Origin: Candidatus Latescibacterota bacterium
GTDB lineage: Bacteria > JAAXHH01 > JACQVL01
NCBI GenBank assembly: GCA_016209865.1
Contig: JACQVL010000252.1
Coordinates: 1-30,513, forward strand
Reading direction: 5' to 3'
Length of the DNA stretch: 30,513 nt
Both the position numbers and the translations under genes were made by a program. Of this stretch, positions 24,858-30,513 are shown in pieces (position 1 is the first letter of the stretch; each line of letters starts with the position of its first letter). The notes below the pieces were generated by a model. That model saw only the letters and a program-made list of their open reading frames with translations. It was not told where the DNA came from and searched no databases.

Positions 24858-25111
24858 ACTGTCCCGGCCAGACGAGGTCTTCGCCCCCACCTCCCCCGCC
24901 TGATCCTGCCTCCCGGCCCTGGATGGCCGCGCTTCCCAGTTCCATTCGAAGTGTCTCTGCTTCCGTCACATCCGCCATCGCGCAGAGAGAACAAGAACCC
25001 GCGCCGAGCAGAAAAAGATCACCCGGCGGCGCTCTGGCATGAGAAATGCTGGAGAACAGGATCGTGTGTTCCAATAAAAGACAATTTTGTCCTTAATTAG
25101 AAGGAGGCGGT
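24858..25111. other. Intergenic stretch before the radical SAM operon
   Basis: I see no convincing gene in this stretch. A - strand frame (about 25060-24860) contains LGAGSCSLC, vaguely like a metal-binding fragment, followed by a low-complexity glycine run; it is probably chance or a decayed fragment. A small dyad, GACAA-TT-TTGTC (25080-25091), lies about 20 bp before the radical SAM start codon and could be an operator. Confidence 0.4.
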
Positions 25112-26071
25112 ATGATCGACCCCGAACTCGCCAAGATCGAACACACCCTGCGCGAAATGCCGTTTCCCTCACGGTTCGCGGTGGAGATTTGCGCCGACTG
25201 CAACCTGGCGTGCACGATGTGTCACCATCCCTTTATGCGTCGACCGAAGGGGACGATGTCGTTTGAGCTGTGGCAGCAATGCGCCGATGAGATCGCCACG
25301 ATCTCGCCCCACACCCAGTGCTGGTTCTCGTTCTGCGGCGAACCCCTCCTCGAGCCCGACTTGCTGCTCCGGATCCTGGCTTACGGGAAGTCAGTCGGCC
25401 TCCGCTCGCTGAACGTCAACACCAACGGCATGTTGCTCACCCCCGACCTCGTCGACCCCCTGCTGGACTCCGGGGTTGATCTCGTCGTCTTCGGGGTGGA
25501 TGGGTTCTCACGCGAGACGTATGAAGCCATCCGCGTCGGCGGCACGCGCGAGGTGTTATACGCCAATATCGAACGTTTCTTGGCCGCGCGGCATGCCCGC
25601 CGCACCGGCCCTGAGGTGCAGGTGCAGTTCATCGAGATGGACGAGAACGAGGTCGAGGTCGAGGCGTTTACGGCGTACTGGCTGGAGCGGGGCGCGACGC
25701 TGAAGGTGCGGAACAAGCTCAGTTGGGGCGGGATGTTCGAGACCTCCCTGACCATCCCGAAGGAACATCGTATCCCGTGCCCCTGGGCGCTCACGATGAT
25801 GCATGTCTTCTGGGACGGGCGGGTGCCCCGGTGTCCCGGGGACACGGAAGGAGCAGAGGGGGTGGGGAATGCGTGGGACGAGCCGTTAACCGTGCTGTGG
25901 GGACGGCTCGGGACATACCGGGAGAAGCACTTACAGCGCCGCTTCGACGAACTGCCCGACCGGTGCCAGACTTGCAAAGACTGGATGACCGGAGCGGCCA
26001 AGCGAATCCGTCCTGCGGAACTGGCCGTGCCAGCGCGGGAGGGGAAGACGGATGGACCGAATGGGAGGTGA
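25112..26071 (+). CDS. Radical SAM enzyme with SPASM-type C-terminus
   Basis: The protein has 319 residues. The 4Fe-4S cluster that cleaves SAM is bound by Cys30, Cys34 and Cys37 (CNLACTMC). FCGEPLLEP follows as the conserved Gly-Glu-Pro, and a barrel continues to about residue 215. The C-terminal part has CPWA, a DGRVPRC strand and a final CQTC, which fits a short SPASM auxiliary cluster domain. Such enzymes modify peptides, sugars or carrier-bound substrates; no precursor peptide is visible next to it. AAGGAGG lies about 5 nt before the ATG, one of the best ribosome sites in the window. It leads a four-gene operon: the next gene starts 4 bp after its stop. Confidence 0.9.
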   Translation: MIDPELAKIEHTLREMPFPSRFAVEICADCNLACTMCHHPFMRRPKGTMSFELWQQCADEIATISPHTQCWFSFCGEPLLEPDLLLRILAYGKSVGLRSLNVNTNGMLLTPDLVDPLLDSGVDLVVFGVDGFSRETYEAIRVGGTREVLYANIERFLAARHARRTGPEVQVQFIEMDENEVEVEAFTAYWLERGATLKVRNKLSWGGMFETSLTIPKEHRIPCPWALTMMHVFWDGRVPRCPGDTEGAEGVGNAWDEPLTVLWGRLGTYREKHLQRRFDELPDRCQTCKDWMTGAAKRIRPAELAVPAREGKTDGPNGR

Positions 26072-26075
26072 CTCG

Positions 26076-26816
26076 ATGGCTATCCTGTACCTCTGTGGGG
26101 CCGGGAACCCTGAAGCGGTCCGGCTCGCCCTCAGAATCAACCAGCATCAGGCCCGCTGGGAGGACATCATCCTGCTGGATGATGATGCGGCCAAGCATGG
26201 ACAATCGATACTGGGAGTGACGATCGCAGGCCGATTTGCGATGCTGGAACAGGCCGAAGCGGGATCGGCGGAAGTCGCCAACCTGGTCGCACGGACGACG
26301 GCGAAGCGGTGGTCGGCGCGTCTGAAGATTGAAGAGTACAAACTCCCGTTTGCTCCCCTAATCCATCCGACGGTCGATCTGATGGGCGCGGAGGTCGGGA
26401 GGGACGCGATCGTCTATCAGCATGCCACCGTTGGGGCCCAGGCGTCGGTGGGCGAGGCGTCGGTCGTCTTCATGGGCGCGGTCGTCGGGCATGAGAGCCG
26501 GGTGGCCCGTTGCTGCATCGTCGCCTCAAACGCCGTGATCAACGCCCGGGTGCAGGTTGGGGAAGGGGCGTACGTCGGCACGAACGCGACGATTCTGCCC
26601 GACGTGACCGTCGGGCCCTGGGCGACGATCGCGGCGGGGTCTGTGGTCATGCGAGACGTCCCAGCCGGGGCGACCGTCATGGGGATACCGGCGAAGGTTC
26701 TGATGAAACTCAACGATAAACCCACGCTGCGCAGTTTTCTCACATCCACAACCGGGGGAGAGACGAATGGAGCGCCACGAACGCCTCACGCAGGCAGTCT
26801 ACAACGCGATCGATGA
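26076..26816 (+). CDS. NeuD/PglD-like hexapeptide acyltransferase
   Basis: The protein has 246 residues. An N-terminal Rossmann-like part beginning MAILYLCGAGNPEA (about 1-85) is followed by a left-handed beta-helix built from hexapeptide repeats (about 95-210, for example VGRDAIVYQHATVGA), ending in MGIPAKVL. This is the layout of NeuD/PglD sugar O- or N-acyltransferases, which use acyl-CoA and work as trimers; the catalytic histidine is likely in VVGHES. The start at 26076 has GGGAGG 7 nt upstream. Its last 50 bp overlap the acyl carrier protein gene in another frame, so the C-terminal tail (about 20 residues) may not be under strong selection. Confidence 0.85.
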   Translation: MAILYLCGAGNPEAVRLALRINQHQARWEDIILLDDDAAKHGQSILGVTIAGRFAMLEQAEAGSAEVANLVARTTAKRWSARLKIEEYKLPFAPLIHPTVDLMGAEVGRDAIVYQHATVGAQASVGEASVVFMGAVVGHESRVARCCIVASNAVINARVQVGEGAYVGTNATILPDVTVGPWATIAAGSVVMRDVPAGATVMGIPAKVLMKLNDKPTLRSFLTSTTGGETNGAPRTPHAGSLQRDR

Positions 26817-27069
26817 GGTCAATGAGAGGCTGGAGCCGGACGAGGCCCTCGACCGATCACCGGATACCGTGCTCATCGGCGAGCACGGCACGCTCGATTC
26901 GGCCGGGTTCGTCACGTTTATCGCCGCTGTCGAGGAGCAGGTCGAGCGGACCTTCAGGATCACGATCAACGTCATCGACGTCGTCACGGCTGGCGAACCC
27001 GGCCAGTGGACGGTGGCGATGTTGACGGCGCGCCTCGCCGACCTGGTCGATGGCGCCGAGCCTCGGTAG
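26767..27069 (+). CDS. Stand-alone acyl carrier protein
   Basis: A 100-residue acidic, helical protein. The pantetheine attachment site is Ser45 in GTLDSAGFVTF, the Asp-Ser motif of carrier proteins, though the residue after Ser is Ala where Leu or Met is common. A GGGGGAG ribosome site lies just upstream, inside the acyltransferase gene. It is not next to fatty acid synthesis genes, so it is likely a dedicated carrier for a small acyl or aminoacyl unit used by this operon. The overlap with the gene before and the 12-bp gap to the gene after point to tight co-expression. Confidence 0.85.
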   Translation: MERHERLTQAVYNAIDEVNERLEPDEALDRSPDTVLIGEHGTLDSAGFVTFIAAVEEQVERTFRITINVIDVVTAGEPGQWTVAMLTARLADLVDGAEPR

Positions 27070-27081
27070 AGGAGCCGTCGC

Positions 27082-27498
27082 ATGGATGAGTACGCGTTCT
27101 TCGGCCCGGCGGCGCGGTTTCATCATATCGGGTTGGCGATGCAATCGATCCGGGCGGTGAATCCGTCCTGCGAAGTCGTCGTCAACAAAACGCAGGGCGT
27201 CTCGATGGCGTTCATCCGGGTCAACGGGGTCACGGTCGAGCTCCTCGAACCGTTCGGGGACGATTCACCGATTGCCAGAAGCGTGCGCGACGGGGTGAAG
27301 TTGCTGCACCTCTGCTACGAGGTGCCGGACCTCGACGCGGCACTCAGGTCGTGTCAGCCGGCCGGGTTTCATCGGGTGTCACGCCCGGTGAGGGTTCCGG
27401 AGTTCGAGAACCGCCGCATCGTCTGGGTCTTTAGCAAGCACTATGGGTTAATCGAGCTCGTGGAACGAGACGGTGACGGGGTCGGCGGCGGCGAGTAG
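27082..27498 (+). CDS. VOC-superfamily metalloprotein (glyoxalase/epimerase-like)
   Basis: A 138-residue protein with the paired beta-alpha-beta-beta-beta fold. All four likely metal ligands are present: His14 or His15 in FHHIGLA, Glu53 or Glu56 in VELLEP, His76 in LLHLCYEV and Glu125 in LIELVE. This resembles methylmalonyl-CoA epimerase and the VOC proteins found with carrier proteins in polysaccharide and secondary-metabolite loci. It may epimerise or isomerise a carrier-bound substrate. GAGGAG lies 7 nt before the ATG. It is the last intact gene of the operon; fragments begin right after, so the original operon may have been longer. Confidence 0.82.
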   Translation: MDEYAFFGPAARFHHIGLAMQSIRAVNPSCEVVVNKTQGVSMAFIRVNGVTVELLEPFGDDSPIARSVRDGVKLLHLCYEVPDLDAALRSCQPAGFHRVSRPVRVPEFENRRIVWVFSKHYGLIELVERDGDGVGGGE

Positions 27499-27728: not shown

Positions 27729-27974
27729 CTACTGCACCTGGAAAGTCTGTCCGACAGGCTGGAATTCCGCCGTTTCTTCCCGTTGCAACTTCCGTCTGAT
27801 CTCTTCGAAGCGGTTGATCGCTGCTCTTGAATACAGCCGTTCCCCGCATCGGAGACAGACATCAGCCATCACCCTGATGACAGCCGTATGCTTGCCTCCA
27901 TGCAGCAGTTTTTCAACCTGCTTCTCAACCATCTCCCCGCCACAAAGCGGACACTGTTTAAAGGGCATCATCAT
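27729..27974 (-). CDS. YgiT-type zinc finger protein, probable antitoxin
   Basis: An 81-residue protein with two CxxC pairs, Cys8-Cys11 and Cys40-Cys43, forming the zinc-binding domain seen at the N-terminus of MqsA/YgiT. The helix-turn-helix half of full MqsA is absent, as is usual for the short partners of DUF4258 proteins. AAGGAGA lies 5 nt before the first ATG. Its start overlaps the end of the DUF4258 gene by 17 bp, a coupling typical of toxin-antitoxin pairs. Base composition is more AT-rich than the genes to the left, which suggests import. Confidence 0.82.
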   Translation of the reverse strand: MMMPFKQCPLCGGEMVEKQVEKLLHGGKHTAVIRVMADVCLRCGERLYSRAAINRFEEIRRKLQREETAEFQPVGQTFQVQ

Positions 27975-28284
27975 CTCGTCTCCTTATACGCCAGTTGATC
28001 CATCGACTGGGATCAGGACGGTACACCGTGATCAGCACTGCCCATTGATTCTGGCGATTATACGCCCACACACTGTGAATCGGTTCATCTGTAGAGGCTG
28101 GTCCGTAGATCAGACAGCTCGGATAGGGATGATCCGTTGGATAGTCCTCGATAATTTCACCATGCTGCACGGAATAGAAGATCTCATTCAATGTCAGTTG
28201 ATCAGCCTGCGCTTCCTCGTCTGCATGATCGGTAATGCGTATACGATCAGCGTGAATCGCGTTGATGATATCAGCCAGGTCCAT
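27958..28284 (-). CDS. DUF4258 protein, probable toxin
   Basis: From the ATG at 28284 the protein has 108 residues; GAGGA lies about 8 nt upstream. It shows the DUF4258 pattern: an early [13 protein letters not shown] histidine-acid motif, the EIIEDYP strand, PSCLIYG and a final [14 protein letters not shown]4258 proteins are predicted RNases related to MqsR/RelE-like toxins and are often paired with YgiT-type zinc fingers; activity is inferred by family. Here the toxin comes first and the antitoxin second, the order known for mqsRA. Promoter at 28365-28393. Confidence 0.8.
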
Positions 28285-28364
28285 GCGATCTGTCCTCAGC
28301 CCATTGCTCGCTGAGTAGGATTGTTGCACTATCGGTCAACGCAATAGATGCTCTCCTGAAGAGC

Positions 28365-28393
28365 AGTATAAATCGAAAATCATCAATACGCAA
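28365..28393 (-). promoter_or_regulatory. Promoter for the DUF4258/YgiT pair
   Basis: Read on the - strand: TTGCGT (28393-28388), 17-bp spacer, TATACT (28370-28365). A small hairpin CTCTTCAGGAGAG follows directly downstream (about 28363-28351) and could be an autoregulatory site. Confidence 0.5.
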
Positions 28394-28401
28394 CCCATTC
28401 T

Positions 28402-28671
28402 TCACCCCACCCACATCTGCCGGTCGAGCGTGCGGTACTGAATCGCCTCGCTCACGTGCTCCATCCGGATCGCCTCCGCACCGGCCAGGTCCGCGGTACG
28501 GGACGGCGGGGACGTCGATGTGGAGGTCGATCCGGTCGAGGAGCGGGCCGGAGACGCGGGCCAGGTAGCGCTGGATGGTCGCCGGGGGGCAGTGGCAGTC
28601 ATGGTGCGGGTCGCCGAAGTAGCCGCACGGGCACGGGTTCATCGCGGCCACCAGCGTGAAGCGGGCGGGGT
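28402..28671 (-). pseudogene. ComM/YifB (Mg-chelatase-like ATPase) pseudogene
   Basis: Reading right to left: [19 protein letters not shown], then [20 protein letters not shown] and [12 protein letters not shown], all conserved in the middle of ComM/YifB. The frame then jumps: the end of the gene, [20 protein letters not shown] followed by TLDRQMWVG and a stop, is in another frame. The join is near 28480-28490, so a stretch of roughly 130 residues plus the reading frame was lost. The N-terminal half is gone, cut at about 28671 where the methyltransferase gene begins to end. GC-rich, unlike both neighbours. Confidence 0.8.
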
Positions 28672-28677
28672 AGATCC

Positions 28678-29835
28678 CTACTCTTTGCGCATGACTAAAA
28701 TTCGTTCAAATTTTGTTGTTCGAGTCCGTCGCCGTGAGCGGCGTTCATCAGGGATGCGATCATCGTAGATGGTGTCTACGACAAACCGATGCTGCGTTAC
28801 ATCAACAGCCAGATCAGCCAGTATCTCTGCTGTGCGCCGCGTTGCACCATCTCGTTCCACGTCGCCCAACACGAGGATGCAATACCCACCGGGCTTGAGA
28901 ACACGCTCCATCTCTTGCAGGCACACGGACATTTGGGGGATGTAGGCTTTACTATTCGCCGTTAAGGAGGTATCAAGTTCCTTCCAGTCTTGGCATCCCA
29001 GAAACCATAGCCGTAGCCGATTGTCGCGAGCATAGTCCAATGCTCCAAAATAAGGAGGACTGGAAATAATCGCATCAACTGTTTCATCGTCGATAGACAA
29101 CTTCATCGAATTTGTTTGCCACACACGATACTGGCGCTGCTCCCAGTTGTCTCGCAGCATAGAGCGACGATACGCTCGTTTGACCTTTGCCAGCAACCGC
29201 GAGCGTAGATCACGATACGCATACATCTTCGGGAATTTATCAGGTGGATATTTGGCCTTACGCAGATAGGGCACAAGATGACTGGCTGGATAAGAAAGAA
29301 AGCCGGGACGCACGTGGTGCAAGATTCCAAGCATACAAGCGGTTAAGAAATGATCTCCCTGTTGTCGCAGTATTCGAAAAGCAGCCAGGGCTTCGCATAA
29401 CGTATCGGGATGAAAGAATTCGCACACCCATTCGGGAACGGCTGTCAAATCTACCGATGCCGCTTCTCGCTCAACGACATCAAGGAGCGTTTTTGCTCTA
29501 TGGATAGCCGCTTCTTCACTCTCGGGTGCTTCCAACTTTCCCCGTGTGAGCACATACGCATAGGGACTGAGGTCATTCGCCCAGGCGTGCCGTCCAGCCA
29601 ACGCAGCTTCCAAAGGGACAACCCCGGAGCCAGAGAATGGGTCCAACACGACATCATCGGGCTTCGAATACAGACTAATCAGTACCCGTGCCATCCCTGA
29701 TTTCATTTTTCCCACGTAAGGGGATAATTGTTGCAGAGTACTTTCCCTGCCGTTAAACGAGCCGTGCCATAACCGGGCATCCAGCCGCGTGATGATCTCA
29801 GTCTCATCAAACAGATAGAGTTGGGGTTCTTTCAT
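28678..29835 (-). CDS. DNA methyltransferase of a restriction-modification system
   Basis: The protein has 385 residues from the ATG at 29835; GTG or TTG codons up to 29871 are possible alternatives and no strong ribosome site decides. The SAM-binding motif DPFSGSG is at residues 65-71 and the catalytic SSPPYF at 258-263, so motif I precedes motif IV. The Ser-Pro-Pro-Tyr form suggests N4-cytosine, though N6-adenine cannot be excluded. The roughly 185-residue span between motifs may hold target recognition. FRPGGY-like [14 protein letters not shown] follows. The likely endonuclease gene lies directly upstream on the same strand. Confidence 0.88.
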
Positions 29836-29858
29836 GCTTTCAGACACAAACTTCACCC

Positions 29859-30513
29859 CTATAGTCGCCAAGAGTGGGAGAGGCTTTCATCAACCATTTC
29901 TCCTTGATGCCAGACTTGAACTGCTCTTTGGAGCCGTCTGTTGGGAAGCTGAACGACTTTCACATGAACGTCCCAAATGTGTTTCTCTCGTTCAGGAGCC
30001 GACACCCCGAAGAGCTCCAGAATGAGACCGGGGAGTTTCAATGTCTTCAATGTATGAATGGGAGGTTCAGGATCATCAACCGAAGGAATGCGTTGCGGAA
30101 ACAAGAAGACGTCGGGGGCTGTCTGAAGTCCAATGTGATCCTCTCGACCAGGGTATTTAGGGCATGGTCGTGTACGGGTTCCACAGAGGATGTCCTTGAA
30201 GAACAAGATATCTACTAACTTGCGCCGTCTGACCAATTCATTCGTCAGACGGTTGATGATCGAGTGAGCACCATGCGCTGGCTGGTTGACGATCGCGCCA
30301 TCGAGATGACACCACACAGCAAATTCTTTCGCCCATAGAGGGCGTTCAGAAATATTGATGCTGTTGCCTTCACCTCCCTTGACTTCAAGGGCAACAAAAT
30401 AATCAGGATCGCGTTCCAGGCAAACGGTGAAATCATACCGGCCGCTGCTACTACTTTGTTTGTACTCAGCGATACGGGCACGTTGTAGCAAATTCTCCAG
30501 AACGTCCTTCACC
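29859..30513 (-). CDS. Probable restriction endonuclease, partial
   Basis: At least 217 residues; the N-terminus probably lies beyond the window, because the visible first codon is at the very edge and there is no ribosome site. A PD-(D/E)xK-type nuclease core is visible: Asp27 in RYDFTV and Glu43-x-Lys45 in VALEVKGG (numbering from the window edge). The rest is not recognisable. It ends 23 bp before the methyltransferase start, the usual pairing of a type II system, and shares its AT-richer composition. It could also be another nuclease of unknown role. Confidence 0.6.
   Translation of the reverse strand, partial: VKDVLENLLQRARIAEYKQSSSSGRYDFTVCLERDPDYFVALEVKGGEGNSINISERPLWAKEFAVWCHLDGAIVNQPAHGAHSIINRLTNELVRRRKLVDILFFKDILCGTRTRPCPKYPGREDHIGLQTAPDVFLFPQRIPSVDDPEPPIHTLKTLKLPGLILELFGVSAPEREKHIWDVHVKVVQLPNRRLQRAVQVWHQGEMVDESLSHSWRL

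Follow-up and report, generated by a model that had tools for sequence, protein, structure and literature searches.

A rare multi-phylum gene cassette pairs a twitch-type radical SAM enzyme with a NeuD-like acyltransferase and a dedicated carrier protein

Based on sequence, structure prediction and comparison across bacterial genomes, we found that four adjacent genes of a Candidatus Latescibacterota contig belong to a cassette that is real, conserved, rare and apparently self-contained. A radical SAM enzyme (rSAM) is followed by a NeuD-like acyltransferase (NeuD), a free acyl carrier protein (ACP) and a VOC-fold protein (VOC). Direct observation covers the gene content, the adjacency of the genes, the conservation of their catalytic residues and the finding that a carrier is always present. 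We propose that the cassette is a portable biosynthetic unit, which would combine a radical modification with carrier-dependent acylation of a small, probably sugar-like acceptor; we judge the chances of this proposal to be even. Among open-licence papers, no described system was found with this combination (a radical SAM enzyme with NeuD, a hexapeptide protein or a peptidyl carrier). The features of the locus are as follows.

25087-25116, forward strand: weak sigma-70-like promoter match, agreeing with the consensus at 9 of 12 positions and extending over the rSAM start codon
25112-26071, forward strand: rSAM, twitch-type radical SAM enzyme, 319 aa (Pfam Radical_SAM, invariant cysteines, AF2 fold)
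26076-26816, forward strand: NeuD, NeuD/PglD/PerB-like left-handed beta-helix acyltransferase, 246 aa (NCBIfam NeuD_NnaD, alignment with PerB)
26767-27069, forward strand: free ACP, 100 aa (invariant Ser45, homology to an FkbH-linked ACP)
26899-26901, forward strand: codon of ACP Ser45, the expected phosphopantetheine attachment site (LDS motif)
27082-27498, forward strand: VOC-fold protein of the methylmalonyl-CoA epimerase type, 138 aa (Glyoxalase_4, E 3.3e-13)

The window, that is, the whole stretch of DNA analysed, is the entire contig C213 (30,513 bp) of the host genome G000, a 3.75-Mb assembly of 356 contigs that is 83% complete. Our analysis confirmed that the four-gene group is real, intact, correctly placed and beyond chance. 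The spacing is the one claimed in an earlier note on this DNA, with 4 bp between rSAM and NeuD, an overlap of 50 bp between NeuD and ACP, and 12 bp between ACP and VOC. A GGAGG-like ribosome site stands ahead of rSAM (AGAAGGAGG) and another ahead of NeuD (GGGAGGTG), and for the start of NeuD the alignment of homologues preferred the ATG at 26076 to position 26052. The weak sigma-70-like match does not count as evidence of function. Misbinning of the contig was ruled out, its MutL being 57-78% identical to those of genomes from the same order. The cassette is absent from the same-order genomes, where the best rSAM match is about 30% identical.

To describe the distribution of the cassette, about 85,000 species genomes were scanned, which revealed 27 relatives of rSAM at 60-77% identity and two remote ones (L035 and L037); one further cassette locus, L077, was found beyond these 27. 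The hosts belong to Acidobacteriota, Gemmatimonadota, Planctomycetota, Myxococcota and Pseudomonadota, with one Acidimicrobiaceae bin, and the cassette spans at least five bacterial phyla. It is rare, being detected in 3 of 347 Acidobacteriota and 4 of 346 Gemmatimonadota genomes, with 2 strong matches in 140 Myxococcota (whole-genome search), where each set includes the genome that was used as search centre. NeuD lies directly after rSAM in all 27 loci with a continuing contig (the window and L077 counted), each of the 26 assessable loci has a carrier, either fused or free, and VOC comes next after the free ACP in 6 of 6 loci, the contig of the seventh (L011) ending there. The conserved neighbourhood that the earlier note had proposed to look for was therefore recovered. 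No flanking family occurs in more than 4 loci, the flanks are unrelated between loci, and sugar-nucleotide genes are not recurrent beside the cassette. No plasmid carrying the cassette rSAM was found. Phyla are mixed in the gene tree, whose resolution is too poor for this to prove horizontal transfer. Several neighbours of the cassette (Rrf2, Crp/Fnr, NrdD/G) seem connected with Fe-S or redox functions, as judged by eye and uncontrolled; Rrf2-type regulators, also identified by eye, stand immediately upstream of rSAM in three Gemmatimonadota loci (L023, L026 and L029), hinting at Fe-S or redox control. The Acidimicrobiaceae copy of rSAM (L036:1609-2410) is split by an apparent frameshift, due to sequencing error or decay.

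The carrier of the cassette exists in two architectures. The fused form occurs in 19 loci; here NeuD has roughly 100 additional residues, with a classical peptidyl-carrier (PCP) domain at its C-terminal end (motif NFFDxGGxSLLA). All fused PCPs keep the active serine, and PF00550 scored above its cut-off in all three fused forms tested (L012, L029 and L031), with L029 carrying two carrier repeats. In the structural model of the L012 fusion, a confident C-terminal four-helix bundle matches NRPS PCPs, and the N-terminal part matches PerB/PglB/VioB. In the free form, found in 7 loci (the window, L009, L010, L011, L013, L024 and L077), a short NeuD is followed by a separate ACP, whereas VOC, which accompanies this ACP, was found in no fused locus. 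On the combined rSAM and NeuD tree, the free and fused forms fall on opposite sides of one branch (support 40/89), and each side contains several phyla. The profiles of free ACP and fused PCP have weak similarity (hhalign probability 5%), and the free ACP appears to be a carrier of another type than the fused PCP. Because two unlike carriers fill the same slot, the carrier is predicted to be functionally required; this slot-sharing is the best evidence for such a need, and the presence of a carrier is itself well supported. Fused forms, such as that of the named cultured strain Hydrogenophaga pseudoflava, offer a compact system of two genes for tests, since rSAM and NeuD-PCP make up the whole unit.

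The first enzyme of the cassette contains the CxxxCxxC motif and matches Pfam Radical_SAM (PF04055, E 2.8e-17). Seven of its cysteines are invariant in 25 sequences, namely C30, C34 and C37 of the radical SAM cluster and C223, C241, C285 and C288, which are likely the ligands of one auxiliary cluster. The name radical SAM/SPASM, given in the earlier note, holds in its first part but not in its second: PF13186 scored 21.1 bits, under its cut-off of 21.5, and with four conserved C-terminal cysteines and one predicted auxiliary cluster, twitch is the better name. The best full-length NCBIfam match, spiro-SPASM TIGR04321 (86 bits), is far under its cut-off of 250, and a viperin-like PADLOC match was judged to be generic radical SAM similarity. 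For the AF2 model (pLDDT 84), the best fold match is BtrN, the butirosin 2-deoxy-scyllo-inosamine dehydrogenase (4m7t, Z 21.6), which has the same twitch fold over 233 residues and a four-Cys site; rSAM is, however, only 18% identical to BtrN, and its partners are NeuD and a carrier. ChlB, SuiB, CteB, anSME and MoaA follow among the fold matches, which also include DesII and BlsE. The substrates of BtrN, DesII and BlsE are free aminocyclitols or sugar nucleosides/nucleotides. In the twitch domain of BtrN, the four-Cys site is the proposed acceptor of the substrate electron (PMC9012708).

Distant paralogues of rSAM (30-39% identity), the host's own copy on G000:C157 among them, sit mostly in glycan loci. 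By eye, most of the inspected loci hold glycosyltransferases, flippases, epimerases and heptosyltransferase-like genes, and one paralogue is followed by a GNAT acyltransferase. Together with the fold matches, this mostly glycan-related setting of the paralogues favours a sugar-like substrate for rSAM. Unlike the cassette, the inspected paralogue loci have no NeuD-carrier partner. In two glycan loci (L035:7995-9679 and L037:7992-9822), a 36% identical homologue of rSAM is directly followed by a creatininase-family gene, a pairing that recalls MftC/MftE of mycofactocin clusters.

The second enzyme matches TIGR03570 (NeuD_NnaD, NeuD/PglB/VioB) with an E-value of 1.2e-40 and 139.3 bits, below the family cut-off of 160.8. 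With the NeuD/PglD/PerB sugar N-acetyltransferases (4ea7, 4m98), it has in common an N-terminal alpha/beta domain, a beta-helix and the catalytic histidine: H139 (26490-26492), the putative catalytic base, falls opposite PerB H141 in the alignment, and it is this PerB residue that 4eaa and 4eab have mutated. The GH pair is invariant in 22 sequences. Cassette NeuD differs from that family not only by its score, but also in being fused to a carrier or encoded with one, whereas PerB and PglD are acetyl-CoA enzymes. A precedent for acyl-ACP donors exists in LpxA and LpxD, which belong to the same beta-helix fold family; these enzymes take fatty acyl-ACP from fatty-acid synthesis and have no fused carrier. 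From the NeuD-PCP fusion we predict a sugar-type N-acyltransferase, tied to radical chemistry, whose acyl donor would be a dedicated carrier and not acetyl-CoA.

The free ACP is recognised only from its motif, its setting in the genome and its homology with an ACP linked to FkbH; it matches no Pfam or NCBIfam family, including PF00550. Ser45 is the only invariant serine of the ACP alignment (A3) and is conserved in all seven free homologues, so that the attachment serine, whose absence the earlier note had named as a counter-argument, is in place. The best PDB matches of the ACP profile are carrier-sized proteins, one of them named acyl carrier protein, and are weak (E 0.015 and 0.29). For VOC, the nearest family is methylmalonyl-CoA epimerase TIGR03081, with 41.5 bits against a cut-off of 115, and the PDB relatives are 2qh0, 3hdp and 3rmu. 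H14/H15, E53, H76 and E125 are invariant in five homologues and, from their role in the family, we take them to be possible metal ligands. The free ACP is 42% identical over 69 aa to the ACP beside FkbH in L076, the window VOC is 47% identical to the VOC of the same locus, and a similar VOC adjoins FkbH in L079. The carrier and VOC groupings with FkbH in surface-glycan loci, which the earlier note had mentioned, do therefore exist among these relatives. The cassette differs from such FkbH/ACP/VOC acyl modules in that it has no FkbH and no glycan locus, and holds a radical SAM enzyme and NeuD instead.

It is possible to arrange these proteins in a pathway, for which we infer all substrates, the order of the steps and the radical reaction. 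The twitch rSAM would use the 5'-deoxyadenosyl radical to oxidise, epimerise or eliminate on the acceptor, its four-Cys auxiliary cluster taking up the electron as proposed for BtrN. The dedicated carrier would hold an acyl or aminoacyl group as a thioester. In the free-carrier form, the acyl group on the carrier would be the substrate of VOC, the most likely reaction being C2 epimerisation, after the model of methylmalonyl-CoA epimerase acting on a CoA thioester. NeuD, with its histidine as base, would then transfer this group off the carrier and onto an amine or hydroxyl of the acceptor. A wider reading, that the cassette represents an undescribed carrier-coupled radical class, in which a twitch rSAM works obligately with a PCP-bearing sugar-type acyltransferase in a rare multi-phylum cassette fed in trans by an adenylation-ACP system, is tentative, and we put its chances well short of even. 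Through the cassette, a modified sugar, lipid or metabolite not described before might come to light in soil and water phyla that have received little study.

The earlier note had suggested a radical step on a carrier-bound substrate. In a rival reading of this kind, rSAM would modify the carrier-bound acyl or aminoacyl group and NeuD would transfer the modified acyl. That rSAM never occurs without a carrier in the 26 judged loci, and that the two are tightly encoded together, are in agreement with this order of events. However, the closest small-molecule folds use free sugars or aminocyclitols, and no obvious carrier accompanies the distant paralogues of the glycan loci. Since BtrN, DesII and BlsE act on free substrates and the paralogues are found mostly in glycan loci, the radical step has at least an equal chance of taking place on the acceptor, and we consider a radical step on the carrier unlikely to be the correct account.

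For modification of the acceptor, as for any of these readings, the source of the acyl group leads to the question of a loader. A motif scan of the cassette loci for adenylation, FkbH, AT and KS loaders returned only the fused PCP and two chance KS-like motifs, and no adjacent loader of these types was found, in accordance with the earlier observation of no FkbH and no ketosynthase. FkbH is absent genome-wide in 6 of the 7 free-type genomes (G000 and 5 of 6 others), where G000 is only 83% complete and G059, which holds L009, is a chromosome on one 4.1-Mb contig. The suggested loss of a loader gene at the right end of the contig found no support, as in the motif scan no homologous locus has an adjacent loader and FkbH is missing from those six genomes. 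The loader may be encoded elsewhere, and the leading candidate is a standalone adenylation enzyme: a genome search for adenylation domains found standalone amino-acid adenylation enzymes in cassette genomes.

One reading, compatible with our main model, is that an unlinked cluster of an adenylation enzyme, an ACP and a luciferase-like monooxygenase supplies the acyl group in trans, the cluster and the cassette being two halves of one pathway. Such a cluster is present in G000:C296, G060, G063 and G066, which represent several phyla, with monooxygenases 56-68% identical. Of the 7 free-type genomes 4 have it, and of the 12 inspected genomes of the fused type none does (Fisher p 0.009), a comparison that covers the strongest adenylation loci of cassette-bearing genomes, which are not independent. 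G070 has the adenylation enzyme and ACP pair without the monooxygenase, and 0.5 kb from the cassette of L009 lies an orphan ACP that shares 49% identity with the ACP of the G000 cluster. Nevertheless, similar monooxygenases (45-48%) are located in natural-product clusters on Tritonibacter and Rhizobium plasmids, whereas no plasmid has the cassette rSAM. The cluster is a candidate loader and, being uncontrolled, a lead and not a result; we regard supply in trans by it as rather improbable. The G000:C296 cluster (L104:3526-10846), partly common to G060, G063, G066 and G070, comprises two AMP-ligases, GNAT-like proteins, the luciferase-like monooxygenase, the adenylation enzyme, a formyltransferase and the ACP. 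In some fused-type genomes (L108-L111), a standalone adenylation enzyme stands beside a gene resembling those of acyl-CoA dehydrogenases (PigA/RedW-like in L110), with an ACP in 3 of the 4 loci, that of L110 being near NF052616; these clusters resemble NF052616/RedW systems.

A pathway of the FkbH type with its loader elsewhere, where FkbH would put a glyceryl group on the ACP, VOC would invert it and NeuD would transfer it, accounts for the relatives of ACP and VOC flanking FkbH in L076 and for the similar VOC of L079; we consider it very improbable, given the six free-type genomes without FkbH, and for L009, on its single-contig chromosome, it is largely refuted. Maturation of a ribosomal peptide or protein by rSAM is highly improbable. 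Many radical SAM/SPASM enzymes do mature peptides, and the fold matches include CteB and ChlB; but rSAM is of the twitch type and not a full SPASM enzyme, NeuD and a carrier are always present, and in 24 loci the 900 bp on each side of the cassette hold no conserved small ORF, in line with the earlier claim that a precursor peptide is missing. The small-ORF matches considered as precursors were rejected as low-complexity GC-rich frames or pieces of a flanking gene.

Downstream of the cassette, the right end of the contig, described earlier as eroded by fragments, is so only in part. A ComM/Mg-chelatase fragment (28271-28651, reverse strand) does adjoin restriction-modification genes, which points to an insertion at comM or to its erosion; but an intact-looking MqsA-like/DUF4258 pair and a type II restriction-modification pair are also present. 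At 27729-28329 (reverse strand), a candidate MqsA-like zinc-finger antitoxin (28.8 bits, just below the cut-off) overlaps a gene for a DUF4258 protein, and the two are probably a toxin-antitoxin pair. At 28678-30512 (reverse strand), a type II DNA methyltransferase is accompanied by a restriction-enzyme-like ORF that reaches the contig end (PADLOC REase_II, E 7.6e-17). The GC content drops from about 0.62 to 0.50 at these genes, which look like an acquired restriction-modification system.
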